NCBI RefSeq assembly: GCF_024171995.1
Contig: NZ_JAMTCT010000001.1
Span: forward strand, 186,001 to 250,000
Direction of reading: 5' to 3'
DNA length: 64,000 nt
Source: Promicromonospora umidemergens
GTDB lineage: Bacteria > Actinomycetota > Actinomycetes > Actinomycetales > Cellulomonadaceae
A program made the translations under genes and the position numbers. Positions 5,618-25,474 of the stretch are shown here, piece after piece (the stretch's first letter is position 1; every line of letters starts with the position of its first letter). The notes under the pieces are model-generated. The model was given only the letters and a program-made list of their open reading frames with translations. It ran no database searches and was not told the origin of the DNA.

Positions 5618-5660
5618 CGAGCGCGACCACAGGCGCTGATCTCGAAGGGTTGTGCACAGG
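5618..5660 (+). promoter_or_regulatory. Shared upstream element (copy 1, before the AbiEi/DUF559-like gene)
   Basis: CGAGCGCGACCACAGG (5618-5633) and TGTGCACAG (5651-5659). The same two blocks, identical and with the same 33-bp offset, occur upstream of comEA (25433-25474). Here the second block ends 51 nt before the GTG start. Position and conservation suggest a transcription-factor site. Confidence 0.6.
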
Positions 5661-5710
5661 GCGACCGGCAGGAGCGCCGCGCCGGCCCTGGTCTGAGCGA
5701 ACCTCGTGGG

Positions 5711-6673
5711 GTGAACGAAGTCGAGATCGTCCTGGCCCGCGAGCACGACCGCGAGGCGTTGCGCCGCGCCGTGCGGGACCAGAAGATGGAGCGGATCCGC
5801 CGGGGTGCCTATCGCCGTCGCCAGGGCACGACCGGTGACCGGTACGAGGTCGCCCGGGACAGGGCGGTCGCACGCGTCGTCGCCGTGAGCACCCAGATCC
5901 GCCGCGCCGTGGTGAGTCACGAGTCGGCGGCGTTGCTGCACGGGTTGCGTCTGTGGCAGCCACCCGGGCACGTCCACGTCATCCAGTCGTACCGGGCGTC
6001 GTCGGCATCCGCCCGTGACGTCGCACGGCATCGTCTGACGCTCGCCGATCACGAACGGACCACCCTGGGCGGCGTGCCGGTGACCAGCCTGGCGCGCACG
6101 ATCGCGGACTGCTGCGTATCGCTGCACCCGCTGCTCGCGCTCGTCATCGTGGATCACGCGCTCGCGCTCGGCCTGGACATCGAGCGCGCACGCGAGATCG
6201 TCACCGGGATGCGGGACGTGCGCGGGCGTCGTCGGGCGCTCCTGGTGCTCGAGCTGGCGGACGCGGGGGCGGAATCGGCCTGGGAGACCTGGCTGCGGTA
6301 CCTGGTCCTGCGGGCCGGTCTGCCCCGACCGACCACGCAGCTGCGGGTGCGCACGCCGCACGGTGAGTACCGGGCCGACCTGGGCTGGGAGGCGTTCCGG
6401 CTGCTGGCCGAGTTCGATGGGCGGGTCAAGTACGCCGCCGGGGCGCTGGGCCCGCAGCACGACGCCGGCCGTGCGCTGTTCGACGAGAAGCGCCGCGAGG
6501 ACCATCTGCGGGAGGAACGCTGGGGAGTGGTGCGCGTGACGTCGTCGGACGGCGCCGGCCCGGCGCTCGCCCGGGTGCTGCGCCACGTGCCGGAGGAGGT
6601 GCGTGCGGCGCTGACCCCTATCCGGCTGCTCCCGGCCCCGCCGGGTGCCATGGGCAGCCCACGTGGTCGGTAG
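5711..6673 (+). CDS. AbiEi-like/DUF559 nuclease-fold protein
   Basis: 320 aa. The N-terminal segment resembles the winged-helix 'AbiEi antitoxin' domain of actinobacterial proteins (AREHDREALRRAVRDQKMERIRRGAYRR). The middle contains VVSHESAALLHGL and TSLARTIADCC, both typical of that family. The C-terminal part (about 205-295) looks like a DUF559/Vsr-type PD-(D/E)xK fold: YRADLGWEAFRLLAEFDGRVKY, then DEKRREDHLREERWGVVRV. That supplies D, E, K and a late basic or aromatic helix in order. No AbiEii toxin gene is adjacent, so the type IV toxin-antitoxin label is only a family name. The comEA-like upstream element suggests a link to DNA uptake or repair. The GTG start is not strongly supported by a ribosome-binding site. 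The stop codon lies inside a palindrome. Confidence 0.75.
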   Translation: MNEVEIVLAREHDREALRRAVRDQKMERIRRGAYRRRQGTTGDRYEVARDRAVARVVAVSTQIRRAVVSHESAALLHGLRLWQPPGHVHVIQSYRASSASARDVARHRLTLADHERTTLGGVPVTSLARTIADCCVSLHPLLALVIVDHALALGLDIERAREIVTGMRDVRGRRRALLVLELADAGAESAWETWLRYLVLRAGLPRPTTQLRVRTPHGEYRADLGWEAFRLLAEFDGRVKYAAGALGPQHDAGRALFDEKRREDHLREERWGVVRVTSSDGAGPALARVLRHVPEEVRAALTPIRLLPAPPGAMGSPRGR

Positions 6674-6726
6674 AACGTCATGAAATCGGTAATCCGAGCT
6701 ACCGATCACCTGACGTTCTGCCGACC
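6665..6726. repeat. Palindromic repeat family A, copy 1 (partly decayed)
   Basis: The left arm begins GGTCGGTAGAACGTCA and the right arm ends TGACGTTCTGCCGACC. About 23 of 27 arm positions pair. The left arm contains the stop codon of the AbiEi/DUF559-like gene. Copies 2 and 3 are at 7222 and 24323. Confidence 0.85.
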
Positions 6727-6781
6727 ACCGTGCCACCCTAAATCCGTTGGGCGGGGGCCTCGGGTGTGCCAGGGTCCGACG

Positions 6782-7198
6782 GTGGCTTCCTTCATCTCGC
6801 ACCTGTCCATCGACTGCTCCGACGCCTACTCGCTCTCCGAGTGGTGGAAACCGGTGCTCGGCTACGAGGACGAGCCCGGCGACCCGAACCTGCCCGGCCA
6901 CGACGAGTGCCTGCTCGTCGACCCGGAGGGAAAGGGCCCGACGGTCCTGTTCATCGAGGTGCCGGAGGCCAAGTCGGTGAAGAACCGGCTGCACCTCGAC
7001 CTGCGGCCGCGCACGGACCTGCAGGACACGGAGGTCGAACGCGTGATCGCGCACGGCGCCACGGTCGTGGCCGACCGGCGCGGGCAGTACGGCCCCGTTA
7101 CGGGCTGGGTGGTGCTCGCCGACCCGGAGGGCAACGAGTTCTGCATCCTCCGCTCGCCCGCCGAGGTCCAGGAGCAGCCCGCGCCGGTCTTCGGCTGA
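6782..7198 (+). CDS. VOC (glyoxalase-like) family protein
   Basis: 138 aa with two beta-alpha-beta-beta-beta modules typical of the vicinal-oxygen-chelate superfamily. The first module begins ISHLSIDCSDAYSLSEWWKPVLGY. The second contains RLHLDLRP and the diagnostic C-terminal VVLADPEGNEFCIL. Single-domain VOC proteins of this kind dimerise and bind metals or small ligands (glyoxalase, bleomycin-binding or thiol transferase types). The exact substrate cannot be assigned. GTG 6782 begins immediately before the domain; the longer frame from 6680 would translate the right arm of the palindrome. It is convergent with the oxidoreductase gene across palindrome copy 2. Confidence 0.85.
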   Translation: MASFISHLSIDCSDAYSLSEWWKPVLGYEDEPGDPNLPGHDECLLVDPEGKGPTVLFIEVPEAKSVKNRLHLDLRPRTDLQDTEVERVIAHGATVVADRRGQYGPVTGWVVLADPEGNEFCILRSPAEVQEQPAPVFG

Positions 7199-7221
7199 GG
7201 GGTACTCGGCCCCGCCCGCCC

Positions 7222-7291
7222 GTGCAGTCGGCAGAACGTCAGGTGATCGGCAGCCTGAGCTACCGATCACCTGACGTTCTGCCGACTGCAC
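7222..7291. repeat. Palindromic repeat family A, copy 2 (intact, between convergent genes)
   Basis: The arms are nearly perfect: GTGCAGTCGGCAGAACGTC... pairs with ...GACGTTCTGCCGACTGCAC over 31 of 32 positions, with a 6-nt loop. It lies 23 bp after the VOC stop and 23 bp after the oxidoreductase stop, so it can serve both strands as a terminator. No U-tract follows. Confidence 0.9.
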
Positions 7292-7314
7292 GGCGGACTG
7301 CGCGCAGTCGCGCG

Positions 7315-8238
7315 TCAGATCCGGACGACCACCTTGCCGCGCGTGTGGCCCGTCTCGTTGGCCCGGTGCGCTTCCGCCGCGTCGGCCAGGTCGAAGGTCT
7401 GAGCGATCTCGACCGACAGCTTGCCTGCGTCGAAGAGCGCAGTGAGCGCGTCGAGGTCCGCGGTGGACGGGCGCACCCAGACGTAGTGCCCGCCGTGCTC
7501 GGTGCGGGCGGCGGCGTCGGCGATCGAGGCGATGGTGCCGCCGTCGGCCAGCAGCTCCGCGCTGGTGGCGACAGCGTCGCCGCCGGCGAAGTCGAGGGCG
7601 ACGTCGATGCCGTCGGGCGCGATCGCTCGGACGCGGTCGGCCAGGCCGTCGCCGTAGGTCACCGGCTCGGCCCCGAGCCCGCGCAGGAACTCGTGGTTGC
7701 CCTCGCTCGCGGTGCCGATGACGCGGGCGCCCAGGGCCTTGGCGAGCTGTACGCCGAACGCGCCGACGCCGCCGGCCGCCGCGTGCACCAGCACCGTCTG
7801 GCCGTCCTTGACCCCGGCGCGCTGGATCGCCTGGTAGGCGGTGAGGCCGGCGAGCGGTACCGCAGCGGCCTCCTCGAAGCTCAGCGAGGCCGGCTTGCGG
7901 GCCAGCGTGCGCACGGGCGCTGCGACGAGCTCCGCGAACGTGCCGCCCCGCACCGTGTCCTTGCGTACGTACCCGTACACCTCGTCGCCGACCTCGAGCT
8001 CGGTGGTGTCCAGGCCGACCTGCTCGACGACGCCCGCCACGTCCCAGCCCGGGATCGCCGGGAGCTCCGTGTCGATCAGACCCTCCAGATAGCCCTGGCG
8101 GACCTTCCAGTCGACCGGGTTGACCGAGGCCGCCTTGACCCGGACCAGCAGGGTGTCGGGACCGATGTGCGGGTCGGGCTGCTCGGTGAGCTCCAGGACG
8201 TCCGCGCTGCCGAACTCCGAATATGTGATGGCTCGCAT
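7315..8238 (-). CDS. NADP-dependent zinc-less medium-chain oxidoreductase (quinone-oxidoreductase type)
   Basis: 307 aa, normal for QOR-type MDR proteins. The N-terminal GroES-like part has VRVKAASVNPVDWKVRQG and PGWDVAGVVEQVG. The nucleotide-binding Rossmann motif is VLVHAAAGGVGAFGVQLAKALGARVIG, an AxxGGVG variant that prefers NADPH. The Cys/His/Glu catalytic-zinc ligands of alcohol dehydrogenases are absent, placing it with quinone/enone reductases. It is a cytosolic enzyme with unknown substrate. ATG 8238 begins the conserved MRAITYSEFG start. A hairpin separates it from the upstream secreted-protein gene, so it probably has its own promoter. Confidence 0.9.
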   Translation of the reverse strand: MRAITYSEFGSADVLELTEQPDPHIGPDTLLVRVKAASVNPVDWKVRQGYLEGLIDTELPAIPGWDVAGVVEQVGLDTTELEVGDEVYGYVRKDTVRGGTFAELVAAPVRTLARKPASLSFEEAAAVPLAGLTAYQAIQRAGVKDGQTVLVHAAAGGVGAFGVQLAKALGARVIGTASEGNHEFLRGLGAEPVTYGDGLADRVRAIAPDGIDVALDFAGGDAVATSAELLADGGTIASIADAAARTEHGGHYVWVRPSTADLDALTALFDAGKLSVEIAQTFDLADAAEAHRANETGHTRGKVVVRI

Positions 8239-8249
8239 TCCAGCCACAA

Positions 8250-8290
8250 CCCACCCGGCGGACGCCGGTATTCCACGGCCGCCGGGTGGG
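8250..8290 (-). terminator. Hairpin after the beta-propeller gene
   Basis: CCCACCCGGCGG (8250-8261) and CCGCCGGGTGGG (8279-8290) form a perfect 12-bp stem with a 17-nt loop. It lies 24 bp downstream of the stop codon of the minus-strand gene at 8315 and just upstream of the next start. Confidence 0.7.
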
Positions 8291-8314
8291 CTGGAGCACA
8301 GGCGCCCCGGGCGC

Positions 8315-9304
8315 TCAGTGCAACGGCAGGCGGGTGACCCAGTACCCGGTGTCTTCCTGCGGCGTCGTGGTGAACCTGGCGTTCGGCAGGTACAGCGCAC
8401 CGGCGAAGCCCGCGATGGTGGTGGGCGTGTCGAAGTCGTCGCTGGTCCGTGTCTGCAGCACCCGCCCTTCCGACGCCGCCCGGTCGAGCCGCACCGTCGC
8501 CACCTGGTTGCGGGTGTTCTGCGCGACGTAGAGGGTGCGGCCGGTCCGGAGCATGCCGTCGCCGTTGGCGAGCTGGTCATCGCCGAGATCGACCAGGTAG
8601 GCATGCCCGTTGGCGGGGTCCACGCGGAAGAGGTCACCGGTCGTCGAGTTCACGACGAGCAGCGACCTGCCGTCGGGCGACGTCGTGATGCCGTTGGCGT
8701 TGAACCCGTCGACCTGCTCCCAGTCGCCGTGCAGCGCCAGCTCGTCGGACGTGTCGGTGGGCGTGCCGCCCGGTCCCAGGTGGAGCCGGTGGACCACGGA
8801 GCGCTCGGAGTCGGTGAAGTAGGCGTAGTGCTTCGTCACGACGACGTCGTTCACGAAGCCGCCGCCGAAGTCGTACGTCGCGAGGACCTCGCCGGTGCGC
8901 CCGTCGACGACGCGTGCGTCGCCGCCGGTGCCGCCCGAGACGAACAGCCGGCCCTTGGCGTCCACGGTGAGCCCCACCGACGGCGTGCCCGGCCCCTGGC
9001 TGATCACCTCGCCCTCGCCGGTCAGCAGATCGGCGCGATAGATGTCGCCGTCGGCCCGCGAGCCGAACCAGGCGAGCGGACCCGCCGTCGTGATGCCCTC
9101 GGGCTGGAAGGCGTCGGGAAGCTTGATCCGGTCCGGGAGCTCGATCTGGGGGAAGGGGTCGCGCAGGGCCTGGCCGAGCTGCTGCTCGGGGGAGCTGCTG
9201 GGGGTCGCTCCGGGTGCGGCGACTGCTGTCGCCGGGACGGCCGCGAGCGTGAGCGCGGCAAGGATGGCCACCGGGGCGGCCAGACGCTGGGGGTGTCTGA
9301 ACAT
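8315..9304 (-). CDS. Secreted SMP-30/gluconolactonase-like beta-propeller protein
   Basis: 329 aa. A Sec signal peptide is clear: basic RHPQR, hydrophobic core, then a VPATAVAA cleavage region near residue 29. The mature part has repeated propeller blades such as GITTAGPLAWFGSRADGDIYRADLLTGEG, GLTVDAKGRLFVSGG, GFNANGITTSPDGRSLLVVNS and LANGDGMLRTGRTLYVAQN. These match extracytoplasmic SMP-30/NHL-like 'superoxide dismutase-like' proteins of actinobacteria. The catalytic Glu/Asn/Asp set of true gluconolactonases cannot be confirmed by eye, so enzymatic activity is open. The start has a good Shine-Dalgarno sequence (GGAGG, 6-7 nt upstream). Confidence 0.82.
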   Translation of the reverse strand: MFRHPQRLAAPVAILAALTLAAVPATAVAAPGATPSSSPEQQLGQALRDPFPQIELPDRIKLPDAFQPEGITTAGPLAWFGSRADGDIYRADLLTGEGEVISQGPGTPSVGLTVDAKGRLFVSGGTGGDARVVDGRTGEVLATYDFGGGFVNDVVVTKHYAYFTDSERSVVHRLHLGPGGTPTDTSDELALHGDWEQVDGFNANGITTSPDGRSLLVVNSTTGDLFRVDPANGHAYLVDLGDDQLANGDGMLRTGRTLYVAQNTRNQVATVRLDRAASEGRVLQTRTSDDFDTPTTIAGFAGALYLPNARFTTTPQEDTGYWVTRLPLH

Positions 9305-9384
9305 CTATGTCCTCCGTCCGTCGCAGAACACGGTACGTCGATGGTCCGCGAAAGGGGAGGAAAGCGGTAAAAGTGTGCCAAGCG

Positions 9385-9412
9385 CCGACGCCTGGAAGCC
9401 CGTCAGCGTCGG
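9385..9412 (-). terminator. Weak hairpin downstream of ligD
   Basis: CCGACGC and GCGTCGG form a 7-bp stem with a 14-nt loop, 14 bp past the ligD stop on the minus strand. This is suggestive only. Confidence 0.4.
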
Positions 9413-9425
9413 GGGCATCGGGGCG

Positions 9426-11918
9426 TCAACCCTGACCCGGACCCTCCACCAGGACGTCCTCCGGCGACTTGTCCGGGCGCCACCCGCGCCACACCGAGTG
9501 GCGCATCCGCCGCTCGCCGGACGCGCTACCGCTGCCCTCCGCCCAGTCGGCGTACGTCACCTCGCCCACCAGCTTCGGCGTCACCCAGCGGGCGTCGGAC
9601 GCGTCCTCCGCCGGGACACCCGACGCACCGGGGGTCTTGCGCTCCATGCCCTGCAGCCGGGTGGTGATCTCCCGGCGCTCACGCTCGGTGAAGCCCGTGC
9701 CGACCCGTCCGACGTAGCGCAGGCCGTCGCGCACGTCGCCGTCGTCGGGCACCGCCATGAGGAGGGAACCCATCACCGAGGTGTTCGCCCGGCCCGGGCG
9801 CCAGCCCACGATCACGACCTCCTGCATCGCGCTGTGCTTGAGCTTGAGCCACTCCCGCGAGCGCCGTTCCGCGTAGGTGGAGGTGCGGCGCTTGGCGACC
9901 ACGCCCTCGAGCCGCAGGGTGCGTGAGGTGCGCATGGCTGAGTCGAGGTCGCCGTCGAACGCGGGCGGGAGGTGGATGGGGGCGCTGGGCGTGAGGAGGG
10001 ACTCCAGCAGCTCACGCCGCTCGGTGTAGGGCTGGTCGGTGACGCTGTGGCCGTCGGCCTCCAGGACGTCGAAGAGCATGAGGTCCACCTGGACGCGGGC
10101 CCGCGCGCGTGCGACGTCGCGCTCCTTGCGGAGGTTGGCGCGCTGCTGGAGGCGGCGGAAGTCGGGGCGGCCGTCGCGGTCGAGGGCGACGATCTCGCCG
10201 TCGAGCACGACGGGCAGCCGGGCCGGGTCGACCTGGCCGGCGAGCGCGGACAGCTCGGGGAAGGTGACGGTGAGGTCCTGGCCGGAGCGGCTGACCAGGC
10301 GCACGGTCTCAAGGTCCTCGACGTGGGCGAGGGCGCGGAACCCGTCCCACTTCATCTCGAACGTCCAGCCCTCCGGCTCGACGAGCTCGCCGGGCGCCGC
10401 GTTGGTGGCGAGCATCGGCCGGCGCGCCTTGTCTCGCTGGGTGCTGGCCTTCTGCCCCGACAGGGCCTTCTTGCTGGGGGAACGTGCGGCACCCGGCGGG
10501 GCCGGGGCGCCGGGCTGGGCCTTGGTGAGGTGGATCAGCCAGTTGTTCTCGGCGTCGCCGTCGCGGCCGCCCGTGCGGATCAGGGCGAGGCGCCGCGCAC
10601 CGCGTTCCGCGGAGCGGAGCGTGACGATCACCTCGTCGTCGCGCCATTTCTCCAGCTCGTACGTGCCGGAGTCCCAGATCGTGACCTCGCCGCCGCCGTA
10701 CTCGCCGCTCGGGATGGTGCCCTCGAAGGACCCGTACTCCAGCGGGTGGTCCTCGGTCTGGACGGCCAGGTGGTTCTTCGCGGGGTCCGTCGGTTCACCG
10801 CGGGGGAGCGCCCAGCTGACGAGCACGCCGTCGTGCTCCAGGCGGAAGTCCCAGTGGAGGCGGCGGGCGTGGTGCTCCTGGATGACGAACGTGGGCTCTC
10901 CGGCGGCCCGTGCGTCGTCGGAGTCGGGGCCGAACGGTTCCGGGGTCTTGGTGGGGTCGCGCTTGGCCCGGTAGTTCTCCAGCTTCTGGAAGGTGGCCAG
11001 GCGCTCCGGCGTCGGCTCGAGCGCGGAGAGGTGACCCTCCAGGAGCGGGGCGAGGAGGTCGCCGTCGGCCTCGACGCGTGCGACGACCTCGTCGGGCGTG
11101 AGCTGCGCGAGGTCCGGGTCGTCGAGCTCTTCCCAGGTGCGAGGTGCTGCCACCCATGGCTGGTCGCGGCCGCGCAGGGAGTAGGGCGCGATGGTGGTCT
11201 TGCTGCCGTTGTTCTGGGACCAGTCGACCAGCACCTTGCCCTGCCGCAGGCTCTTGCTCATGTCGCTGACGACGAGGTCGGGGTGCTCGGACTCGAGGTA
11301 GCGCGCGAGCTCGTGCGCGACGGCGGAGACGGCGTCGGAGTCGAGCCGGGTGTCCTGCGCCTTGCCGAGCGCCGCGTACAGGTGGATGCCCTTGGAGCCC
11401 GACGTCACTGGATACGGCTCCAGGCCCATGCCCTGCAGGATCTCGCGCGCCCAGCGGGCGACCTGTGCGCACTCGGGCAGGCCGGCGCCCGGGCCGGGGT
11501 CGAGGTCGAGCACCAGGCGGTCGGGGTCGAGGCGGGCGCCCGTGCGGCCGAACTGCCACTGCGGGGTGTGCAGCTCGAGGGTCGCGGTCTGGCCCAGCCA
11601 TGTGAGGGTCGCGAGGTCGTTGACGAGCACGTAGTCGTTGGCCGACGTCCTGTGCTGGATCGACCGGCGCTTGACCCAGTCGGGGGTGGAGGCGTCGAGG
11701 TTCTTCTGGAAGAACATCTGCCCGCCCGTGCCGTCGGGCCACCGCTTGCGCGTGGCGGGGCGGTTGGCGGCGTGCGGCAGCAGCACGGGCGCGACCTGTG
11801 TCAGGTAGTGCAGGACCTCGCCCTTGGTGGTCCCGGACGCGGGGAACAGCACCTTGTCGAGGTTGCTCAGGCGGAGGCGATGTCCGTCGACCATGACCGT
11901 CTGCTGCGTGGACGCCAT
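9426..11918 (-). CDS. ligD: Multifunctional NHEJ DNA ligase LigD (Pol-PE-Lig)
   Basis: 830 aa with three domains in the mycobacterial order. The primase-like polymerase domain (about 10-300) has the metal-binding LVLDLDPG near residue 140 and SGSKGIHLY. The 3'-phosphoesterase domain (about 345-470) begins FVIQEHHARRLHWDFRLEHDG and contains the Zn/Mn-ligand His residues. The ATP-dependent ligase domain (about 500-830) has the nucleotidyl-transfer motif EMKWDGFRAL, with Lys near residue 523 as the adenylation site, and later EGVVAKRR. LigD fills in, trims and seals double-strand breaks together with Ku. A GTG at 11921 is an alternative start. It is divergent from the glutaredoxin-ku pair across 101 bp. 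Confidence 0.97.
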   Translation of the reverse strand: MASTQQTVMVDGHRLRLSNLDKVLFPASGTTKGEVLHYLTQVAPVLLPHAANRPATRKRWPDGTGGQMFFQKNLDASTPDWVKRRSIQHRTSANDYVLVNDLATLTWLGQTATLELHTPQWQFGRTGARLDPDRLVLDLDPGPGAGLPECAQVARWAREILQGMGLEPYPVTSGSKGIHLYAALGKAQDTRLDSDAVSAVAHELARYLESEHPDLVVSDMSKSLRQGKVLVDWSQNNGSKTTIAPYSLRGRDQPWVAAPRTWEELDDPDLAQLTPDEVVARVEADGDLLAPLLEGHLSALEPTPERLATFQKLENYRAKRDPTKTPEPFGPDSDDARAAGEPTFVIQEHHARRLHWDFRLEHDGVLVSWALPRGEPTDPAKNHLAVQTEDHPLEYGSFEGTIPSGEYGGGEVTIWDSGTYELEKWRDDEVIVTLRSAERGARRLALIRTGGRDGDAENNWLIHLTKAQPGAPAPPGAARSPSKKALSGQKASTQRDKARRPMLATNAAPGELVEPEGWTFEMKWDGFRALAHVEDLETVRLVSRSGQDLTVTFPELSALAGQVDPARLPVVLDGEIVALDRDGRPDFRRLQQRANLRKERDVARARARVQVDLMLFDVLEADGHSVTDQPYTERRELLESLLTPSAPIHLPPAFDGDLDSAMRTSRTLRLEGVVAKRRTSTYAERRSREWLKLKHSAMQEVVIVGWRPGRANTSVMGSLLMAVPDDGDVRDGLRYVGRVGTGFTERERREITTRLQGMERKTPGASGVPAEDASDARWVTPKLVGEVTYADWAEGSGSASGERRMRHSVWRGWRPDKSPEDVLVEGPGQG

Positions 11919-12019
11919 CACACCATCGTGCCGCCGGTCGGGTTCTCGTGCCCAGACGTCACCGAGATCACGTGCTGGAGGGTCGTGACGGCGGCGGGAA
12001 CTCCGCTAGGCTCCGGCGA

Positions 12020-12343
12020 GTGATTTCGGACTACCGCGCGATCGACGCGCTCGCAGCGCCTCTGGCGACTGCAGGCGATGCCTCGTCGGCCGCCCGACCT
12101 GAGCAGCTCACCGTCTACGGCGCCGAGTGGTGCCGTGACTGCCGCCGCAGCAAGGCCGTTCTCGACGTCCGCCGCGTCAGCTATGTCTACGTGGACCTCG
12201 CAGCCCACCCGACCCGTGCCGACGAGGCCGAGGCGCTGACCGGGCGAAAGACCATCCCGGTGCTGGTCTTCCCCGACGGCGAGCAGCTCGTCGAGCCGAC
12301 CAACGCAGAGCTCTGCGCGAAGCTGGACCGCGCCGGCCTCTGA
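12020..12343 (+). CDS. Glutaredoxin-like / mycoredoxin-type protein
   Basis: 107 aa. An N-terminal stretch of about 33 residues precedes a glutaredoxin fold beginning LTVYGAEWCRDCRRSKAVLD. The active site is a CxxC (C-R-D-C), and a cis-Pro follows in GRKTIPVLVFPDGEQLVEPTNAEL. Actinobacterial homologues reduce mixed disulfides with mycothiol (mycoredoxin) or feed ribonucleotide reductase (NrdH); the sequence does not separate these. GTG 12020 follows a TAGGCT -10 box by 7 nt, so the mRNA is probably leaderless. It sits between ligD and ku and may be expressed with the latter (69-bp gap). Confidence 0.85.
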   Translation: MISDYRAIDALAAPLATAGDASSAARPEQLTVYGAEWCRDCRRSKAVLDVRRVSYVYVDLAAHPTRADEAEALTGRKTIPVLVFPDGEQLVEPTNAELCAKLDRAGL

Positions 12344-12412
12344 CGCCACCCCTGTTCGTCGGCCCAGACCGAAACCTGGGCATGTAGTGCTCCCCAGGCG
12401 CACCATAGAAGG

Positions 12413-13297
12413 ATGAGGGCGATCTGGAAGGGCGCCGTGACCTTCGGCCTCGTCAACGTTCCGGTCAAGCTGTACAGCGCGACCGAGGACCACGACGTGT
12501 CGCTGCACCAGGTACACGATGCCGACGGTGGACGTATCCGGTACAAGCGCGTGTGCGAGATCGACGGCGAAGTGGTGCCGTACGAGCACATCGACCGCGC
12601 CTACGACGACGGTGAGCGCACGGTCGTGCTCACCAAGAAGGACCTCGCGGATCTCCCTGCCGAACGGGACCGCGAGATCTCGGTGGTGGAGTTCGTGCCC
12701 AGCGACCAGATCGACCCGATCATGTTCGACCGGACGTACTACCTCGAGCCGGACTCCAAGTCCACGAAGGCGTACGTGCTGCTGCGCCGCACGCTGGAGG
12801 AGACCGAGCGCACGGCCGTCGTGAAGTTCGCGCTCCGCCAGCGCACCCGGCTGGCCGCGCTGCGCGTGCGCGACGAGGTGCTCGTGCTGCAGACCCTGCT
12901 GTGGGCCGACGAGGTCCGCGAGGCCGCGTTCCCCTCCCTCGACGAGCCCGCGAAGATCTCCGAGAAGGAGCTCACGATGTCGGCCCAGCTGGTCAGCAGC
13001 TTCGAGGCCGACTTCACGCCCGAGGACTACGAGGACGAGTACCAGGTACAGCTGCGCAAGCTCGTCGAGGCGAAGCTCGAGGCCGGCGAGACGGTCGACA
13101 CGGCCGCGACCTTCGGTGAGACGGCCGAGGAGGAGGGCGAGGGCGCCGAGGTGGTCGACCTGATGGAGGCGCTCAAGCGCAGCGTCGCGGAGTCGAAGTC
13201 GAAGTCTGGGTCGAAGTCCGGGTCACGGTCCGGGTCCGGGACCTCGTCGACGTCGGCCAGGTCGAAGCCGAAGTCGAAGTCCCGCAAGGCGGGCTGA
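12413..13297 (+). CDS. ku: Ku protein, DNA end-binding factor for NHEJ
   Basis: 294 aa. The bacterial Ku core spans about residues 1-255, with the typical start MRAIWKGAVTFGLVNVPVKLY. It also has IRYKRVCEIDGEVVPYEHIDRAYD, LEPDSKSTKAYVLLRRTL, and ELTMSAQLVSSFEADFTPEDYEDEY near the end of the ring. The remaining 40 or so residues are a low-complexity Ser/Lys/Arg tail (SKSGSKSGSRSGS, then KPKSKSRKAG). Such extensions are known to add DNA binding and LigD contact in some actinobacteria. Homodimeric Ku threads onto broken ends and recruits LigD, encoded divergently upstream. A GAAGG directly before the ATG is too close to be an ideal Shine-Dalgarno site. Confidence 0.97.
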   Translation: MRAIWKGAVTFGLVNVPVKLYSATEDHDVSLHQVHDADGGRIRYKRVCEIDGEVVPYEHIDRAYDDGERTVVLTKKDLADLPAERDREISVVEFVPSDQIDPIMFDRTYYLEPDSKSTKAYVLLRRTLEETERTAVVKFALRQRTRLAALRVRDEVLVLQTLLWADEVREAAFPSLDEPAKISEKELTMSAQLVSSFEADFTPEDYEDEYQVQLRKLVEAKLEAGETVDTAATFGETAEEEGEGAEVVDLMEALKRSVAESKSKSGSKSGSRSGSGTSSTSARSKPKSKSRKAG

Positions 13298-13302
13298 CGG
13301 GC

Positions 13303-13887: not shown

Positions 13888-13905
13888 CGGTCCATCGTGC
13901 CGTCT

Positions 13906-14044
13906 GAGCTGCAAGTTCGTCGTGCGGGCGGCGCCGAGCCGCAAGTTGGTCGTCCGGGTGGCGTCGAGCCGCAAGTTGGTGGTGCGGGTGGCGTCGAGCC
14001 GCAAGTTGGTGGTGCGGGTGGCGTCGAGCCGCAAGTCACGCGTC
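13906..14044. repeat. 30-bp tandem repeat, 4.6 copies
   Basis: Units start at 13906, 13936, 13966 and 13996, with a partial copy at 14026. The unit reads GAGCCGCAAGTTGGTGGTGC followed by GGGTGGCGTC; units 3 and 4 are identical and unit 1 is the most diverged. The period is a multiple of three, so the minus strand stays open through it. The GCCGCAAGTTG core links it to the repeats at 14097 and 61619. Confidence 0.9.
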
Positions 14045-14096
14045 TATACGGGTGTCCGGTGACGTGTTCGCATCGGTTCGGCGTCCGAGGCCACCG

Positions 14097-14290: not shown

Positions 14291-14319
14291 GCGCCGAGCA
14301 CCAAGCAGGCCTCGGCGGC

Positions 14320-14381
14320 GCGCGGCACGCATCGGCCGCGCCGCATGAACGCGCGGCACGCATCGGCCGCGCCGCATGAAA
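14320..14381. repeat. 31-bp tandem duplication just upstream of the metallophosphoesterase gene
   Basis: Two copies (14320-14350, 14351-14381) begin GCGCGGCACGCATCGGCCGC and end GCATGAAC or GCATGAAA. They are identical over 30 bp and end 12 bp before the ATG. Each copy contains the palindrome GCGCGGC...GCCGCGC. Confidence 0.9.
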
Positions 14382-16807: not shown

Positions 16808-16881
16808 TCTGCTCCCCGTTGTGCTCGTCGCCGGTGTCGCCGACGGTCTGTTCGAATCGATACGACACCCTGGAGAGCCCC

Positions 16882-18108: not shown

Positions 18109-18154
18109 CCCGAGATCCAGCAATGTCCCAGCCCGCGCCGGTAGCGTGGGGCGG

Positions 18155-18814
18155 GTGACTGAGACAGGGGCGACCACGACGTCGTCGGAGAGCTCGATGA
18201 ACGATGAGAACGACGTCGCCGCGACGGGGGCCAGACCGCTCGCCGGCCGGACGATGGGGCTGCTTCTCGTGGTGCTGGGCGGGATCGGCTTCGTGGCCTC
18301 GTTCGCCCTCGCGTGGGAGAAGTACCTGGCGTTCGTCGATCCGGACCGGACGGCGTCCTGCACCGTCAACCTGTTCGTCACCTGCAGCGCCGCCATGGAC
18401 TCGTGGCAGGGCGCGCTGCTCGGCTTCCCCAACCCGTACATCGGCGTGGCGGCGTTCCCCGTCGTCGTCACGACGGGGGTGATGCTGCTGCTCGGTACGC
18501 GTCTGCCCCGCTGGTACTGGACGTCGCTGCTGGCCGCGACGGTGCTCGGCCAGGCGCTCATCTTCTTCCTGATGTGGACCAGCTTCGAGGTGATCGTCGC
18601 GCTGTGCCCCTACTGCATGGTCGTGTGGACCATCATGTGGCCGCTGCTCTGGTACCAGATCGTGCGAGGCGCCCAGTCCGGCGACCTGCCCATGGGCGCT
18701 GGACTGCGGGACGCGCTGGTGGGCAACCGCACGATCATCCTGATCATCGGCTACGTCGCCGCTGTGGCGTGGCTGATGCTGGCGGTGGGCGAGCACCTGA
18801 TCGCGTCGTTCTGA
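18155..18814 (+). CDS. Vitamin K epoxide reductase family protein (VKOR)
   Basis: 219 aa. After a 30-residue soluble N-terminus there are five hydrophobic segments. The redox loop carries a Cys pair (SCTVNLFVTCSAAMDSWQG) and the active-site CPYC lies in the fourth segment (ALCPYCMVVWTIMWP). Bacterial VKOR replaces DsbB: it reoxidises DsbA-like proteins and passes electrons to menaquinone, supporting disulfide formation in secreted proteins. GTG 18155 is preceded by TAGCGT (18142-18147) with a 7-nt gap, implying a leaderless transcript; an upstream in-frame GTG at 18146 would overlap that box. The cysteine-containing secreted proteins at 29-31 kb are plausible clients. Confidence 0.93.
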   Translation: MTETGATTTSSESSMNDENDVAATGARPLAGRTMGLLLVVLGGIGFVASFALAWEKYLAFVDPDRTASCTVNLFVTCSAAMDSWQGALLGFPNPYIGVAAFPVVVTTGVMLLLGTRLPRWYWTSLLAATVLGQALIFFLMWTSFEVIVALCPYCMVVWTIMWPLLWYQIVRGAQSGDLPMGAGLRDALVGNRTIILIIGYVAAVAWLMLAVGEHLIASF

Positions 18815-18824
18815 CACGTTCAGC

Positions 18825-18867
18825 GCCCGGCCCGGCCCAGGCCGCGGTAAGCGGGCCGGGGCCGGGC
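18825..18867. terminator. Bidirectional GC-rich hairpin between convergent genes
   Basis: A 14-nt arm GCCCGGCCCGGCCC (18825) pairs with GGGCCGGGGCCGGGC (18853-18867). It lies 10 bp after the VKOR stop and 11 bp after the phosphodiesterase stop on the other strand. Confidence 0.75.
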
Positions 18868-18878
18868 TGCGGCACGGC

Positions 18879-20189
18879 TCAGCGGCGCAGCGACTCGCGC
18901 AGCGCCCGGCCCTCGCTGCCCGACGGCGGCGCGTAGCCCAGCAGCGCCGAGATCGTCGGCGCGATGTCGATGTGCCGCGGCGCGCGGGGGTGCGCACCTG
19001 GTCGGACCCCCGCTCCGGCCAGGAACAGCGGCACGTGCAGCTCGGTGGTCGAGCCGTGCCGCCCGGACGGTCCCGCCGGCGTCGTGCCGAACGACCAGCC
19101 GGGCTTCGGCTCGACGAGCAGGTCGCCGTAGTTCGGGCTCATGCGCATGCGCCGCTGGTCGGCCTTGTCGAAGACGTTCCGCACCTGCGGCAGCGCCGTC
19201 AGCGCCCCCTCCAGCCGGCGGACCGCCGCCGGGTCGCCCGCCCGCTCGCCGATGATCCGTACGTCCGCGACCCCGCCGACGACTATCGCGACGTCGGTGC
19301 CGGGGGCCGGTGACTGGCCGCTCGTGAGGATCTGCGGGGTGAAGCCTGCGGCCTCGACCGCGGCGAGCCCTTCGGCCCCGAAGCCCTTGTCGAAGGTCGT
19401 CATGCCGTGGTCGCCCGTGATGACGAACGCGGTGCGGCCGTAGATGCCCGCGTCCTTCGTGGCCGCGACGATCCGCCCGATCTGGCGGTCGATCTCCGTC
19501 AGGACGCCGGGGATCCGCGGGTCCTCGTCGCCGCCCTCGTGCCCTATCGCGTCGAGGGTGTCGCAGTAGACGGTCATGAGCTCCGGGATGCCGTTCGCGG
19601 TCACCAGCTGCCCGCCCGAGCTGACGGGCTCGCCGCGCAGCACGGCGACGGCGTCGTCGGTACGGCGCGCGCAGTCACCACCGGGCTGGGTGTAGAGGCC
19701 GTCGGGGTCGCCGTAGGTGACGCCGTAGTTCTGCAGGATGAACCACTGGGAGGAGAACACGGTGCCGCCCTGCTCGCGGACCGACTGCGCGATGGTGGGT
19801 ACCGCGAGGTCGCGCTGCTGCCCGCGCGCCGTGTTCGTCTCTGTGTTGAACCAGTAGGCGGTGTTGCGGTGGGTCTCTGGCCAGGCACCGGTCGCCACCG
19901 ACGACCAGGACGGGTTGGTGATGGAGGTCATCACGCCGGTCGAGGTCGTGACGCTGCCACGGTGCAGGAGGCGCCGCAGGTTCGGCATCTCCCCGGAGCC
20001 GTCACGGACCAGGTCGAGGTACTCGATGTCGAACCCGTCGAGCGCGAGGAAGACCACGTGGTCGGCGGGACTTCTGCCGGCAGGGCCGGTCTCGTCCGTC
20101 GGCGACGGCACGGCTGCTGCGGTCGGGGCCGTCCACACGACGGTGGCGGCGATGCTGGCGGCGAGGAGCTTTCGCAACGAGGGCATCAT
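18879..20189 (-). CDS. Secreted alkaline-phosphatase-superfamily phosphodiesterase (nucleotide pyrophosphatase type)
   Basis: 436 aa with a Sec signal peptide ([24 protein letters not shown]). The alkaline phosphatase superfamily core is visible. It has [13 protein letters not shown] (first metal Asp), [25 protein letters not shown] (catalytic Thr/Ser region), [14 protein letters not shown] (D...H), VITGDHGM (DH) and [16 protein letters not shown] (late His). NPP/autotaxin-type enzymes hydrolyse nucleotide or lipid phosphodiesters outside the cell. ATG ATG at 20189/20186 begins the signal peptide. The much longer frame extending to 22391 is antisense to leuS and is not coding. Confidence 0.9.
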
Positions 20190-20321
20190 GCGGGCAATTC
20201 GAGCACTCCGGCGGACAACTTCGGGGGAGGCGCGGGCGAATGTCGGATGAACCTTCGCCCGGTCTTTTGCCCTGTGGACGACCGAGAGCCGGGTATCCGC
20301 TCGGTCGGTAGACTCTGCGGC

Positions 20322-23267
20322 GTGACAATGCCCGACGCACCCGAGCGCACCGCGTCTTCGGACGAGCCCCGTTTCCGCTACACCCCAGCCCTCGCGCAGC
20401 AGATCGAGCTGCGCTGGCAGGACGTCTGGGAGGAGCGCGGAACCTTCCATGCGGCGAACCCGCAGGGGCGACTTACCGGGCCGGGCGGGCGCCCGGCGGA
20501 GGGCAACCCGTACTTCATCATGGACATGTTCCCGTACCCCTCGGGTGCGGGGCTGCACGTTGGGCACCCGCTGGGCTTCATCGCCACGGACGTGGTCGGC
20601 CGGTTCCGGCGCATGTGCGGCGACAACGTGCTGCACACCATGGGTTTCGACGCGTTCGGCCTGCCCGCCGAGCAGTACGCGGTGCAGACGGGCGAGCACC
20701 CCCGCCTGGTCACCGAGCGCAACATCGTCACGTACAAGCGGCAGCTCCGGCGGGCGGGCCTCGCACACGACCCGCGCCGTTCGTTCGCCACGATCGATCC
20801 CGAGTACGTCCGCTGGACCCAGTGGATCTTCCTGCAGATCTTCGACTCCTGGTACGACGAGGAGGCACAGCGGCCAGACGGCGGACGCGGGCGAGCCCGG
20901 CGGATCGGCGAGCTGCCCGACGAGCTGGCGTCGGGCGCACGTCCCGTACCCGGCCACGAGGGGGACAACACGGACGGCGCCGTCTGGGCTGCGCTGAGCG
21001 AGGGGCAGCAGCGCGACGTCGTGGACGCGCAGCGGCTGGCCTACGTGGACTCCTCGCCGGTGAACTGGGCACCCGGCCTCGGTACCGTGCTGGCGAACGA
21101 GGAGGTCACCAGCGACGGCCGGTCCGAGCGCGGCAACTTCCCGGTGTTCACCAAGAACCTGCGCCAGTGGAAGATGCGCATCACCGCGTACGCGGACCGC
21201 CTGACCGACGACCTGGAGCTCATCGACTGGCCGGACAAGGTCAAGTCGATGCAGCGCAACTGGATCGGCCGGTCCACGGGCGCCGCCGTGCGGTTCGACG
21301 TGGTGGGCACCGCCGAGTACGACCCGGCCGGTGCGGGCGGCAGCCTCGAGGTGTTCACGACACGTCCGGACACGCTGTTCGGCGCGACCTTCATGGTCGT
21401 GGCCCCTGAGCACCCGCTGCTCGACGAGGTCCCGAGCGCGTGGCCGGAGGGCACACGCTCGGCGTGGACCGGTGGTTACGAGACGCCGGGCGAGGCGGTC
21501 GCCGCCTACCGGCGTGAGTCCGCCGCGAAGACCGCAGTGGAGCGGCAGGCAGACGCCGGCAAGAAGACGGGTGTGTTCACGGGGCACCTGGCCGTGAACC
21601 CGGTGACGGGTACGTCGGTCCCGGTGTTCACCGCCGACTACGTGCTCATGGGCTACGGCACCGGCGCGATCATGGCGGTGCCGGGCGGCGACGAGCGTGA
21701 CTTCGCGTTCGCGGAGGCCTACGACCTGCCGGTGATCCACACGGTGGAGCCAGAGGGCGGCCTCCCCGATGGGCACGTCGGCGCCTACACCGCCGACGGC
21801 GTCGCGGTCAGGTCCTCGAACGACGAGATCTCGCTGGACGGGCTCGGCGTGACCGAGGCCAAGGCACGGATCGTCGAGTGGCTCGAGGCGAAGGGCATCG
21901 GCGAGGGCACGACCACCTACCGCCTGAACGACTGGCTGTTCTCCCGCCAGCGCTACTGGGGCGAGCCCTTCCCCGTGGTGTGGGACGAGCAGAACCGCCC
22001 GATGGCGCTGCCGGACTCGATGCTGCCCGTCGAGCTGCCCGAGGTGCCCGACTTCTCGCCGCGCACGTTCGAGCCCGACGACGCGGCCTCGGAGCCGGAG
22101 GCGCCGCTCGGCCGCAACGAGGACTGGGTCAACGTCGAGCTCGACCTCGGCGACGGCGCGAAGACCTACCGCCGCGACACGAACACCATGCCGAACTGGG
22201 CCGGCTCGTGCTGGTACTACCTGCGCTACCTGGACCCGACCGACACGGCGCACGCCGTGGACCCGGAGCTCGAGAAGTACTGGCTGGGCCCGCGGCACAA
22301 CCCGACGTCCGGTCCGGCGGGCGGCGTCGACCTGTACGTCGGTGGCGTGGAGCACGCGGTGCTGCACCTGCTGTACGCGCGGTTCTGGCACAAGGTCCTG
22401 TTCGACCTGGGCTTCGTGACGAGCCTCGAGCCGTTCGGCAAGCTCTTCAACCAGGGGTACATCCAGGCGTACGCGTTCACGGACGCGCGCGGCGTGTACG
22501 TCCCGGCGGCCGAGGTCGATGGTGACGAGCAGGCCGGCTTCACCTGGCGCGGCGAGCCCGTGAACCGCGAGTACGGCAAGATCGGCAAGTCGCTGAAGAA
22601 CGTGGTCTCGCCGGACGAGATGTACGAGGCGTACGGCGCCGACACGTTCCGGGTCTACGAGATGTCGATGGGTCCGCTCGACCAGTCACGTCCGTGGAAC
22701 ACCCGCGACGTCGTCGGCTCGCAGCGGTTCCTGCAGCGGCTGTGGCGCAACGTCGTCTCTGAGGAGACCGGCGAGCTCACGGTGACCGACGACGAGGCGG
22801 ACACCGCCACCCTGCGGGCCGTGCACCGCACCATCGCCGACGTCCATGTCGAGATGGAGAACATGCGGCCCAACACGGCGATCGCCAAGCTCATCACGCT
22901 GAACAACCACCTCACGGGGCTGGACTCGGTTCCGCGTGCCGCCGTCGAGCCGCTGGTCCTGATGACGGCGCCCATCGCGCCGCACATCGCGGAGGAGCTG
23001 TGGTCCCGGCTCGGTCACGAGGAGTCGCTGGCGCACGCGCCGTTCCCGGCAGCCGACGCTGCGTACCTCGTCCAGGACACCGTCACCTGCGTGGTCCAGG
23101 TCCAGGGCAAGGTGCGCGCCCGGTTCGAGGTCGCCCCGGACATCTCCGCCGAGGACCTGGAGGCGGCAGCCCTCAGCGAGCCGAACGTGGTCAAGTTCCT
23201 GGACGGCCGGGGCACCCGCAAGGTCATCGTCCGCGCCCCGAAGCTGGTCAACATAGTCCCGGCCTAG
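20322..23267 (+). CDS. leuS: Leucyl-tRNA synthetase
   Basis: 981 aa, class Ia. The HIGH motif appears as [13 protein letters not shown] (residues about 73-85) and the KMSKS loop as KIGKSLKN. The CP1 editing domain has [13 protein letters not shown] and [17 protein letters not shown], including the conserved Thr-rich and Asp editing residues. It charges tRNA-Leu in the cytosol. An actinobacterial insertion of about 45 residues with Arg/Gly content follows [13 protein letters not shown] 20322 follows a TAGACT -10 (20309-20314) with a 7-nt gap, so the message is likely leaderless; ATG 20328 is the alternative. No T-box or leader attenuator was seen. Confidence 0.97.
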
Positions 23268-23278
23268 GTTCAGTCCGT

Positions 23279-23313
23279 CCGACCACGGTCCTTACCCTCT
23301 GGACCGTGGTCGG
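23279..23313 (+). terminator. Terminator hairpin of leuS
   Basis: CCGACCACGGTCC (23279-23291) and GGACCGTGGTCGG (23301-23313) form a perfect 13-bp stem with a 9-nt loop, 12 bp after the leuS stop. Confidence 0.85.
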
Positions 23314-23386
23314 GCTCCGGCGTTTCGCGCGGGAGGTGCCGACGGTTTCGCTGTCCGGTTCCTCGCGCGGATAGAGTGGCGCGGTC

Positions 23387-24268
23387 ATGCGCACCCGACG
23401 TCGATCTCCCAGCCCGGCTCCCCAGGAGGTGCGGGTCGTCACCGACTCGACCGCCTGCCTGCCCGCCGGTCTGCCGGGCGGCCCGGTCGTGGTGCCCCTG
23501 CGCGTCCTGGTCGGCGACGAGGCCTACGCCGAGGGCGAGGACATCACCCCCGAGCGGCTCGCCGAGCTGGTCGCAGAGGGTGCGCAGGTGACCACCTCCC
23601 AGCCGCCTCCGGAGGCGTTCGCCGCCGTCTACCGCGGCCTCGGTGAGGAGGGTGCCCGGTCCATCGTCTCGGTGCACCTGTCCGGGGCGCTGTCCGGCAC
23701 GGTGGGCTCAGCGGGGACGGCCGCAGCGCGGTCGCCACTGCAGGTGCGCGCCGTGGACTCGCGTACCGGCGCCGCCGGCCTCGGGTTCGCCGCGCGCGCG
23801 GCGGCAGAGTGCGCCGCCGCCGGGGCCGACGCCGCCCATGTCGCCGCCCGGGCCATCGAGGTCGCCGGCACGGCGAACGCCGTGTTCGTCGTCGACACCC
23901 TGGAGCACCTGCGCCGCGGCGGACGGCTCTCCGGGCCTGCCGCGGCGCTCGGCACGGTCCTGGGCGTCAAGCCGATCCTGCGGCTGTCCGACGGCGTGGT
24001 GGAGCTCTCCCAGCGAGTGCGCACTCGTGCTGTCGGTGCCGAACGGCTGCTGGATCAGGCCGCAGGCTTCGTCGCCGAGGCGAAGCGGCCGGTGGTCGCC
24101 GTGCACCACTTCGGCGCGTACGACCGGGCACTCGCGCTGGCCGGCCGCCTGCACACCCGTACGCGAGCGGAGGTCGAGGTCACACCGCTGAGTGCCGTGC
24201 TGGGCGTGCACGTCGGTCCGGGCACCCTCGCCGTCGTCGTCGCGGACCTGGGCGACCACTCCCACTGA
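23387..24268 (+). CDS. DegV-family fatty-acid-binding protein
   Basis: 293 aa. DegV signatures are present: VRVVTDSTACLP at the start, VTTSQPPPEAF (Thr-Ser fatty-acid carboxylate site), SIVSVHLSGALSGT, DTLEHLRRGGRLS and VLGVKPILRL. Members (FakB in Firmicutes) present fatty acids to a FakA kinase for phospholipid synthesis. No FakA-like gene is in the window. In actinobacteria this gene commonly sits between leuS and comEA, as here. A TAGAGT hexamer ends 9 nt before the ATG. It is convergent with the following hydrolase gene across palindrome copy 3. Confidence 0.93.
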   Translation: MRTRRRSPSPAPQEVRVVTDSTACLPAGLPGGPVVVPLRVLVGDEAYAEGEDITPERLAELVAEGAQVTTSQPPPEAFAAVYRGLGEEGARSIVSVHLSGALSGTVGSAGTAAARSPLQVRAVDSRTGAAGLGFAARAAAECAAAGADAAHVAARAIEVAGTANAVFVVDTLEHLRRGGRLSGPAAALGTVLGVKPILRLSDGVVELSQRVRTRAVGAERLLDQAAGFVAEAKRPVVAVHHFGAYDRALALAGRLHTRTRAEVEVTPLSAVLGVHVGPGTLAVVVADLGDHSH

Positions 24269-24280
24269 GCTGCTGCTCGC

Positions 24281-24320
24281 GGACCCTCGCGGACCCTCGC
24301 GGACCCTCGCGGACCCTCGC
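24281..24320. repeat. 10-bp tandem repeat, four copies
   Basis: GGACCCTCGC repeated four times without change, immediately before palindrome copy 3 and 10 bp after the degV stop. It is probably a recent slippage product. Confidence 0.95.
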
Positions 24321-24322
24321 CG

Positions 24323-24386
24323 TGGTCGGTAGGACGTCAGATGATCGGCCGCCCGGGCGACCGATCATCTGACGTCCTACCGACCA
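24323..24386. repeat. Palindromic repeat family A, copy 3 (intact, between convergent genes)
   Basis: TGGTCGGTAGGACGTCAGAT... pairs perfectly with ...ATCTGACGTCCTACCGACCA over 26 nt, with a 12-nt loop. Relative to copy 2, three positions differ in the left arm and each is matched by the complementary change in the right arm. It is flanked by the degV and hydrolase stop codons. Confidence 0.92.
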
Positions 24387-24401
24387 TCCCACCGGCACGG
24401 A

Positions 24402-25280
24402 TCAGCCGGCGAGGACCTCGCGCAGCCTTGTCGCGAACTCGACGGGCTTGTCGGCCGGCTGGCCGTACTCGCCGCCGCTGAAACCGCCGTGGCCACCCGG
24501 GAAGACGACCGGTTCGGTACCGAGCCGCGCAGCCGCCCCGCGAGCGGCTCGGCCCGTCATCTGCTCGCCGGTGTCTTCGCCGACGCCGATCACCACTCGC
24601 GGAGCGCCGGCCGCGATGGTCTCGTACCGTGGCTCGTAGGGCGGCAGCACCAGCATGTTGACGCCGAACATCAGGTCGTCGCGGGAACCGTCGTCCTCGG
24701 TGGGCAGGCCGAATGCCGCCGGGTCCGGGTCGGGCTGCTTCGCGTGGTCCGCGGTGAGCTCGCCCTCGGCCATGAGCACCGTGATGAACTTCGCCATCGC
24801 GGCGCCGAAGCCCTTGGCCTGGTAGGTGTCGTGCATGCCGGTCATGGCGGCGACCATCGCGTCACGGTCGGGGAGCACGGTGGCCAGGGGCGGCTCGTGC
24901 GCCACGACGGTCCGGAGGTCCGCGGGGTGGGTCGCCGCGAGCTCCAGCGCCACGACGGCGCCGCCGCTGGAGGCGAACAGGTCGACCGGTCCGCCGCCGA
25001 CCGCGCCGATGATGCGGTGCACGTCGTCTGCGTGGGTGGCGACGCCAGGCAGCTCCGCCTCGGTAGCCAGGTCTCGCGTGCTGCGCTCGACACCACGCGG
25101 GTCGTACGTCACGACGGTCCGGTCGGTGAAGTGGCCGGCGAGCGTGCTGAACCCCTCCGCTCCCATCGGGAGGCCGATCAGCACCAGGGGAACCTCGTCG
25201 GTCGGCGCTGCGGCCTCGCGCACGTCATAGGTGAGGACGCCGCTCGGCGCTTCGAGGGTGAAGGTCTTCTTGTCGGTCAT
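24402..25280 (-). CDS. Alpha/beta hydrolase
   Basis: 292 aa. Canonical alpha/beta-hydrolase layout: VPLVLIGLPMGAEGF (oxyanion-hole strand), DLFASSGGAVVALELA with nucleophile Ser in A-S-S-G-G, and a C-terminal PGGHGGFSGGEYGQP supplying the catalytic His. The sequence FTDRTVVTYDPRGVERST is the standard strand 4. It is cytosolic with unknown substrate. ATG 25280 has a good Shine-Dalgarno sequence (AGGAG, about 7 nt upstream). It is inserted in reverse orientation between degV and comEA. Confidence 0.9.
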   Translation of the reverse strand: MTDKKTFTLEAPSGVLTYDVREAAAPTDEVPLVLIGLPMGAEGFSTLAGHFTDRTVVTYDPRGVERSTRDLATEAELPGVATHADDVHRIIGAVGGGPVDLFASSGGAVVALELAATHPADLRTVVAHEPPLATVLPDRDAMVAAMTGMHDTYQAKGFGAAMAKFITVLMAEGELTADHAKQPDPDPAAFGLPTEDDGSRDDLMFGVNMLVLPPYEPRYETIAAGAPRVVIGVGEDTGEQMTGRAARGAAARLGTEPVVFPGGHGGFSGGEYGQPADKPVEFATRLREVLAG

Positions 25281-25432
25281 CGTGTGGCTCCTGCTCGTAC
25301 GCCTCGGCCCGGCCGGGTTGGCTCGGGCGCTCGCTGCCAGGTCTGACGACGGTGCCGGGAGGAACTCATCGGTGCACGTCGGCGAATCTTTCGTGCGAGC
25401 ACACGGACCCCCGGCACGGCCCGGTGCGGCGA

Positions 25433-25474
25433 CGAGCGCGACCACAGGAGGCGACTTTCGAGGTCTGTGCACAG
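25433..25474 (+). promoter_or_regulatory. Shared upstream element (copy 2, before comEA)
   Basis: CGAGCGCGACCACAGG (25433-25448) and TGTGCACAG (25466-25474), the same two blocks at the same 33-bp offset as at 5618-5659. The second block ends 53 nt before the comEA ATG and 39 nt before its TAGCGT -10 box, a position suited to an activator. Confidence 0.62.

Follow-up and report, generated by a model that had tools for sequence, protein, structure and literature searches.

Among the described competence systems, those controlled through the ComK box, the ComX/CIN box and the CRP-S sites share a simple logic, in which one short element placed before uptake, pilus and recombination genes defines the competence regulon. 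Here we analyse a stretch of 64,000 nucleotides from Promicromonospora umidemergens (contig NZ_JAMTCT010000001.1, positions 186,001 to 250,000, forward strand; hereafter the window), which is part of a 6.6-Mb genome and in which the same pair of sequence blocks precedes comEA-comEC and a gene for an AbiEi/DUF559-like protein. The two blocks are probably half-sites of one activator element, which would serve as a shared promoter element of an Actinomycetes competence regulon. It resembles the three known elements in its set of targets, but differs from them in sequence, layout and phylum, as it consists of tandem half-sites, commonly 27–28 bp apart, upstream of a promoter that has no -35 signal and is often predicted to be leaderless.

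The closest described actinobacterial case is Micrococcus luteus, in which comEA/EC, the Tad pili and a gene resembling cpaB contribute to transformation (PMC8467076, PMC12849477, PMC4322843). The same genes are targets of the element reported here; however, the accessible parts of these papers describe no shared cis element. In January 2026 the competence regulon of M. luteus was described as unknown and its regulatory cascade as still to be identified (PMC12849477). A literature search, mostly without subscription papers and preprints, found no description of the element.

The two copies in the window

The features concerned are as follows (positions of the window):

5618..5633, + strand: left block of the element of the AbiEi/DUF559-like gene, CGAGCGCGACCACAGG, identical to the comEA copy
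5651..5659, + strand: right block of the element of the AbiEi/DUF559-like gene, TGTGCACAG, identical to the comEA copy
5699..5704, + strand: possible weak -10 (GAACCT) of the AbiEi/DUF559-like gene, position taken from the promoter alignment
5711..6673, + strand: AbiEi/DUF559-like gene, GTG start 51 nt past the right block
25433..25448, + strand: left block of the comEA element, CGAGCGCGACCACAGG
25466..25474, + strand: right block of the comEA element, TGTGCACAG
25514..25519, + strand: -10-like TAGCGT of comEA, kept in the comEA upstreams of the genus
25528..26502, + strand: comEA (SLBB and helix-hairpin-helix), ATG start 53 nt past the right block
26499..28883, + strand: comEC, whose start overlaps the comEA 3' end (matches in Pfam: Competence 1.3e-43, Lactamase_B, DUF4131)

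The original prediction, which was made from the window alone, described the copies correctly: both 16-mers (5618–5633 and 25433–25448) and both 9-mers (5651–5659 and 25466–25474) are identical, the offset of the blocks is exactly 33 bp in either copy, and the distance from the end of the right block to the start codon is 51 nt for the GTG at 5711 and 53 nt for the ATG at 25528. Its statement that the bases between the blocks have diverged is true in general, but a T-rich centre is partly retained over 69 sites from Promicromonospora and Antribacter. The left block has a CGAGC extension, each position of which is retained in 24–29 of 29 exact sites. The combined two-block pattern with at most three mismatches has two matches in the window and none in 100 dinucleotide shuffles, while the 9-mer of the right block alone is not significant there (10 matches against 13 expected with at most one mismatch). 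The product of comEA matches HHH_3 (4.7e-21) and SLBB (2.3e-15) in Pfam. A mechanically called minus-strand frame (24402–25529) overlaps the comEA copy; as its probable true start, judged by eye, is near 25280, the site was counted as intergenic.

Targets and conservation of the element

The 39-bp pattern was searched in the whole genome with spacers of 15–19 permitted and with the reversed pattern as a control. It has four exact copies, every one with a spacer of 17 (control: 0), and 11 copies with at most three mismatches (control: 1), each of which is followed by an open frame on its own strand. The direct-repeat form YGWSCACAG-N18-YGWSCACAG identified 11 sites as well (control: 0), and the union of both patterns comprises 12. 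These sites precede comEA(-comEC), recA, tadZ/Ssd, cpaB (SAF and RcpC), five genes of the AbiEi/DUF559-like kind, genes for an M23 peptidase and a 3-methyladenine glycosylase, and one further gene that matched no family. A degenerate thirteenth site lies upstream of a sixth AbiEi-like gene (contig C19; locus L269, cut at the contig end), with an ATG at +51, and a seventh paralogue has the right half alone, also at +51; in total, five of the nine AbiEi-like paralogues carry the full element, one the degenerate version, one the right half and two none. The genome-wide check thus extended the element beyond the window to recA, tadZ, cpaB, the M23 peptidase gene and further AbiEi-like paralogues.

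In total 131 sites were fetched, 71 from Promicromonospora and Antribacter and 60 from outside these genera, and their targets were assigned by manual reading of the frames. The former set consists of the 11 own-genome sites and 60 hand-picked sites out of the 104 listed for seven genomes (G014 13 of 15, G007 5 of 11, G008 2 of 14, G003 13 of 18, G012 7 of 14, G002 15 of 18 and G004 5 of 14). Outside, an order set of 40 contains all sites listed for G073, G253, G064, G080, G198, G102, G185, G042 and G187, plus a single site, out of two, from each of G075 and G103, and a class set of 20 covers G486 (9 of 9), G279 (4 of 4), G295 (4 of 5), G423 (1 of 7), G531 (1 of 3) and G333 (1 of 5). Transformation, pilus or recombination genes follow 70 of the 131 sites. 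Outside Promicromonospora and Antribacter they account for 39 of 60 (tadZ 9, recA 7, yraN 5, ssb 4, comEA 3, cpaB 3, comM 2, comF 2, M23 2, DUF4244 pilin 1, TadE-like 1), the other sites preceding AbiEi-like genes (12), DUF4192 genes (2) and seven others (a WXG100-like gene, an XRE regulator, an MTAP-like enzyme, two unassigned genes, a DnaA-box-like cluster and an integrase). Family scans of the same 60 sites returned TadZ/Ssd 9, RecA 7, UPF0102/YraN 5, AbiEi_4 5, SSB 4, HHH_3 3, SAF 3, DUF4192 2 and Mg_chelatase 2; family support above the cut-off was obtained for one of the two comF sites, the TadE-like assignment gained none from the family scan, and the remaining AbiEi-like assignments follow from weaker matches or were made by eye. 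Within Promicromonospora and Antribacter 31 of 71 sites belong to the same functional group (cpaB 8, comEA 7, M23 7, tadZ 5, recA 2, yraN 1, ssb 1), and the rest comprise 21 AbiEi-like genes and 19 others, including glycosylase 3, WXG100 4, DUF222 3 and tannase-like 1. The check across families thus found the element before ssb, comF, yraN/comM, recA, tadZ, cpaB and comEA, and the original proposal that the AbiEi/DUF559-like gene belongs to a competence regulon is supported by an element common to comEA, recA, tadZ, cpaB and M23: since the target set includes AbiEi/DUF559-like genes, the window gene is a predicted member of this regulon.

Several other genes were also seen after the element. 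Proteins of the DUF4192 family have it in two distant families (L140, L278), and near matches in Antribacter lie upstream of three DUF222/HNH-type genes (L054, L063, L064). In several genomes WXG100 or short WXG100-like genes follow it, at L061, L069, L081 and L104 and at L053, L068, L092, L095 and L161. A protein of about 210–260 amino acids with no family match, presumably Rv3235-like, was found in three Promicromonospora genomes (L018, L080, L101), and a 3-methyladenine glycosylase with GTG at +51 likewise in three (L019, L077, L096).

With at most two mismatches the pattern has 204 matches in 13 Promicromonospora genomes, compared to 46 for the reversed control, and 15 compared to 2 in Antribacter. 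Conservation upstream of comEA in close relatives, on which the original prediction was to stand or fall, turned out to be complete in these two genera and partial beyond them. Both genera keep the pair at every comEA locus compared, nine in Promicromonospora and two in Antribacter (with one mismatch at two of these 11), together with TAGCGT in all nine Promicromonospora upstreams, TACGGT in both from Antribacter, and an ATG 50–53 nt past the right block. The other five comEA loci show variants or nothing. Upstream of comEA in Isoptericola and Krasilnikoviella (L123, L124) the right block reads CGTCCACAG, 50 nt before GTG, and CGAGCCTGCCCCCAGG, which we read as the left block, is shifted towards it by 10 bp, roughly one turn of the helix; in Oerskovia a pair of half-sites with an offset of 28 bp lies 51 nt upstream of a GTG; the comEA upstreams of Myceligenerans and of a metagenome-assembled genome of Planctomycetota contain no element at up to two mismatches. 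In the apparent frameshift of one comEA (L066, genome G007), located before the helix-hairpin-helix end, either a sequencing error or decay may be seen.

In the order, the exact direct repeat occurs in 43 of 248 genomes, with at most 16 copies per genome and controls near zero, and in the class exact GTCCACAG-N18..20-GTCCACAG occurs in 47 of 296 genomes. Elsewhere in the class the element more often takes the form of a direct repeat of YGTCCACAG, 27–28 bp apart. A comEA set was compiled from 119 genomes by taking the 30 best-scoring loci and 40 picked across families; four of these 70 had no recognised frame and were excluded, leaving 66. The right block is located 49–53 nt before an in-frame start in 17 of them (exact) or 32 (at most one mismatch), compared to at most 1 and 14, respectively, for any of 300 permuted motifs at the same loci, and it is present in 13 of 18 families. 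A second half-site (at least 8 of 9 letters) was looked for at 35 comEA loci and found 26–29 bp up in 16, 17 bp up in two, and 39, 50 and 55 bp up in one locus each, spacings that hint at helical phasing.

Promoter geometry and the proposed mechanism

The right block typically ends 49–53 nt before the start codon; the bin of 50–54 nt past the block holds the start at 73 of 131 sites, compared to 4–16 for each other 5-nt bin. In an alignment at the start codon of 104 distinct upstreams, selected for a start at 49–53 nt, 58% have A at -11 and 61% have T at -7. TAnnnT occupies this place in 52 of 104 upstreams, compared to 0, 0 and 1 for control windows lying farther upstream, and a -35 signal is not recognisable. 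If transcription starts at the start codon, this is the place of a canonical -10, and the arrangement points to activator-dependent, often leaderless promoters. With a transcription start at 5711, the GAACCT (5699..5704) of the AbiEi/DUF559-like gene would have its A at -11 and its T at -7.

The recA genes are mostly leadered, yet the distance from the right block to TAnnnT is again about 38–39 nt, which argues that the element is anchored to the promoter and not to the reading frame. All nine recA sites also contain a motif similar to the PafBC P1 promoter at a fixed spacing (L085, L107, L136, L145, L150, L156, L162, L165, L287; own genome C4:123211, L241), while only 1 of the 122 other sites has it. 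The PafBC/P1 consensus is tTGTCRgtg-8 nt-TannnT (PMC5656591). The promoters described here are similar to P1 promoters in having TAnnnT and no -35, and recA is a target of both; however, the present element lies further upstream. PafBC as the factor behind the shared element was rejected, TGTCRGTG-8 nt-TAnnnT being specific to recA among these sites. The recA genes appear to have both a DNA-damage promoter and the competence element, which would amount to dual control. An interpretation of the two blocks as the -35 and -10 of an alternative sigma factor is disfavoured, because TAnnnT lies about 38–39 nt below the right block.

The paired activator site postulated in the original prediction fits this geometry, as the element would span about -53 to -89 from the inferred start in promoters without a -35 signal. 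According to the mechanism we propose, one regulator would bind two tandem half-sites in the same orientation, which commonly read YGTCCACAG, whereas Promicromonospora has CGAGCnCGACCACAGG as the left and YYGTSCACAG as the right half-site, and from its position at about -53 to -89 it would recruit the housekeeping RNA polymerase to TAnnnT promoters without a recognisable -35. At most targets transcription would begin at the start codon itself, yielding leaderless mRNA. The predicted targets comprise the uptake and recombination genes comEA-comEC, comF, yraN-comM, ssb and recA, the Tad/Flp pilus (tadZ, cpaB, pilin), the M23 peptidase and many AbiEi/DUF559-like genes. The paired signal looks like a common on-switch for DNA uptake in many actinobacteria.

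A number of observations weigh against this interpretation. Two of the nine own-genome AbiEi-like paralogues lack the element, and in most other genera of the family the Promicromonospora spelling is no more frequent than the control. The right block is missing from its place in 34 of the 66 comEA upstreams of the order and was found at none of 17 loci in families f4, f9, f11, f13 and f19. In the chosen frame 57 of the 131 sites have no in-frame start at 49–53 nt, 52 of the 104 aligned promoters lack TAnnnT, and the AbiEi-like gene of the window has a weak possible -10. Occurrence at unrelated genes or inside coding sequence, which if frequent would refute the original prediction, was seen for a chance site in a tannase-like frame (L084), a site before an integrase (L289) and one within an apparent DnaA-box cluster, recognised by eye (L168); most fetched sites lie elsewhere.

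Candidate regulators and the AbiEi/DUF559-like protein

DnaA, the AbiEi proteins and one particular HTH_17 gene were considered as regulators and all appear less likely than a separate activator. BldC binds direct repeats, and proteins of the HTH_17 (excisionase/BldC-like) family might bind the half-sites head to tail and repress or activate the com promoters. HTH_17 proteins constitute the best lead in the literature, from the genetics of M. luteus: com-up mutations lie in Mlut_14660, which encodes an HTH_17 protein, in its 5' region or in the adjoining cpaB-like gene, the one exceptional mutant had a single-nucleotide polymorphism in another HTH_17 gene, and R64W by itself restored the phenotype, though binding to the com promoter is, according to the authors, still to be verified (PMC8467076). 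An HTH_17 gene is located 6.5–6.8 kb from cpaB in the genome of the window, in G002 and in G014. However, in a comparison that covered this cpaB-linked gene, one of 20 HTH_17 matches in the genome, no close match was found in the element-bearing G003 (best 33%, with a stop) and no match at E 0.001 in G198, G080 and G279. We consider the family an unlikely source of the regulator on this evidence.

Doubtful to a similar degree is the possibility that the half-sites are DnaA boxes and that DnaA, acting on tandem boxes, couples competence to the replication state. The actinobacterial DnaA box has the consensus TTGTCCACA, which the common half-site YGTCCACAG fits, including the GTCCACA core and the arrangement of multiple tandem boxes; L168 resembles a box cluster by eye, and the presumed own-genome oriC (contig C16, between dnaN and dnaA frames assigned by eye) contains GTCCACAG twice and the palindromic CTGTGCACAG. 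A TTGTCCACA-like core in both half-sites holds in other families but fails in the genome of the window, where all 11 sites have GACCACAG as their left half and 8 of the 11 have GTGCACAG as their right half, the pattern having permitted both spellings. The GACCACAG version was not found in the own-genome oriC locus, where the listed boxes have a TCCACA-type core, although partly by construction, as the oriC search asked for that core. The fixed promoter position and the transformation-gene targets also set the element apart from DnaA boxes.

It is still less probable that the element is an operator of the AbiEi-type proteins themselves, which would exert autoregulation and cross-regulate the com genes. 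No other single type of target is as frequent as the AbiEi-like genes, with 33 of 131 sites by manual reading, many of these genes encode the AbiEi_4 helix-turn-helix, and AbiEi_4 matches exist in 23 of 24 element-bearing genomes. On the other hand, G075 has no AbiEi_4 match and G102, G198 and G139 have sub-cut-off matches alone; such absence counts for little, because even the AbiEi/DUF559-like protein of the window does not match AbiEi_4. A site upstream of a promoter without -35 would also suit activation better than autorepression. Finally, the possibility that the motif is a DNA-uptake signal or a dispersed repeat without a function in promoters, of which matches at unrelated places (L084, L289) are reminiscent, can practically be discarded, as there are about 12 copies per genome against near-zero controls, their strand and distance to start codons are fixed, in contradiction to such a role, and the same targets recur in distant families.

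The separate activator remains the preferred explanation, and among its predicted targets the AbiEi/DUF559-like protein deserves a closer look. The window protein has no match of its own in Pfam (at 0.01) or NCBIfam. Comparison of its eight-sequence group with hhalign identified a three-sequence group (98.5%, E 3e-15, 205 columns), one member of which matches DUF559 (4.6e-7), MTES_1575 and AbiEi_4; a second own-genome AbiEi-like subfamily matched the same group at 99.4%. The D...E-x-D-G pattern is aligned within the 205 columns, so that the protein resembles AbiEi antitoxins and DUF559 proteins by homology, but differs from them in its lack of family matches and in sharing a promoter with transformation genes. 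The structural model is moderate (pLDDT, the predicted local distance difference test score, of 64, the C-terminal part being better), and the best Foldseek match, the AbiEi antitoxin 6y8q, has E 0.05, with none at E 0.001; hence the nuclease-fold label is based on sequence homology. A PDB profile search with the AbiEi-like alignment retrieved two weak, unrelated chains. The AbiEi/DUF559-like protein may act on incoming or heteroduplex DNA, as suggested in the original prediction.

We regard the chances as even that one activator drives transformation across much of the Actinomycetes and that the AbiEi/DUF559-like, DUF4192 and DUF222/HNH proteins are competence effectors with a processing or policing role on incoming DNA and not parts of toxin-antitoxin systems. 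A defined cis element provides a probe for pulling out the regulator, and it predicts members of the regulon, and possibly transformable species, from sequence. It also gives the AbiEi/DUF559-like proteins of these genomes their first functional context and, if the above view is true, would provide a function for several large orphan families.

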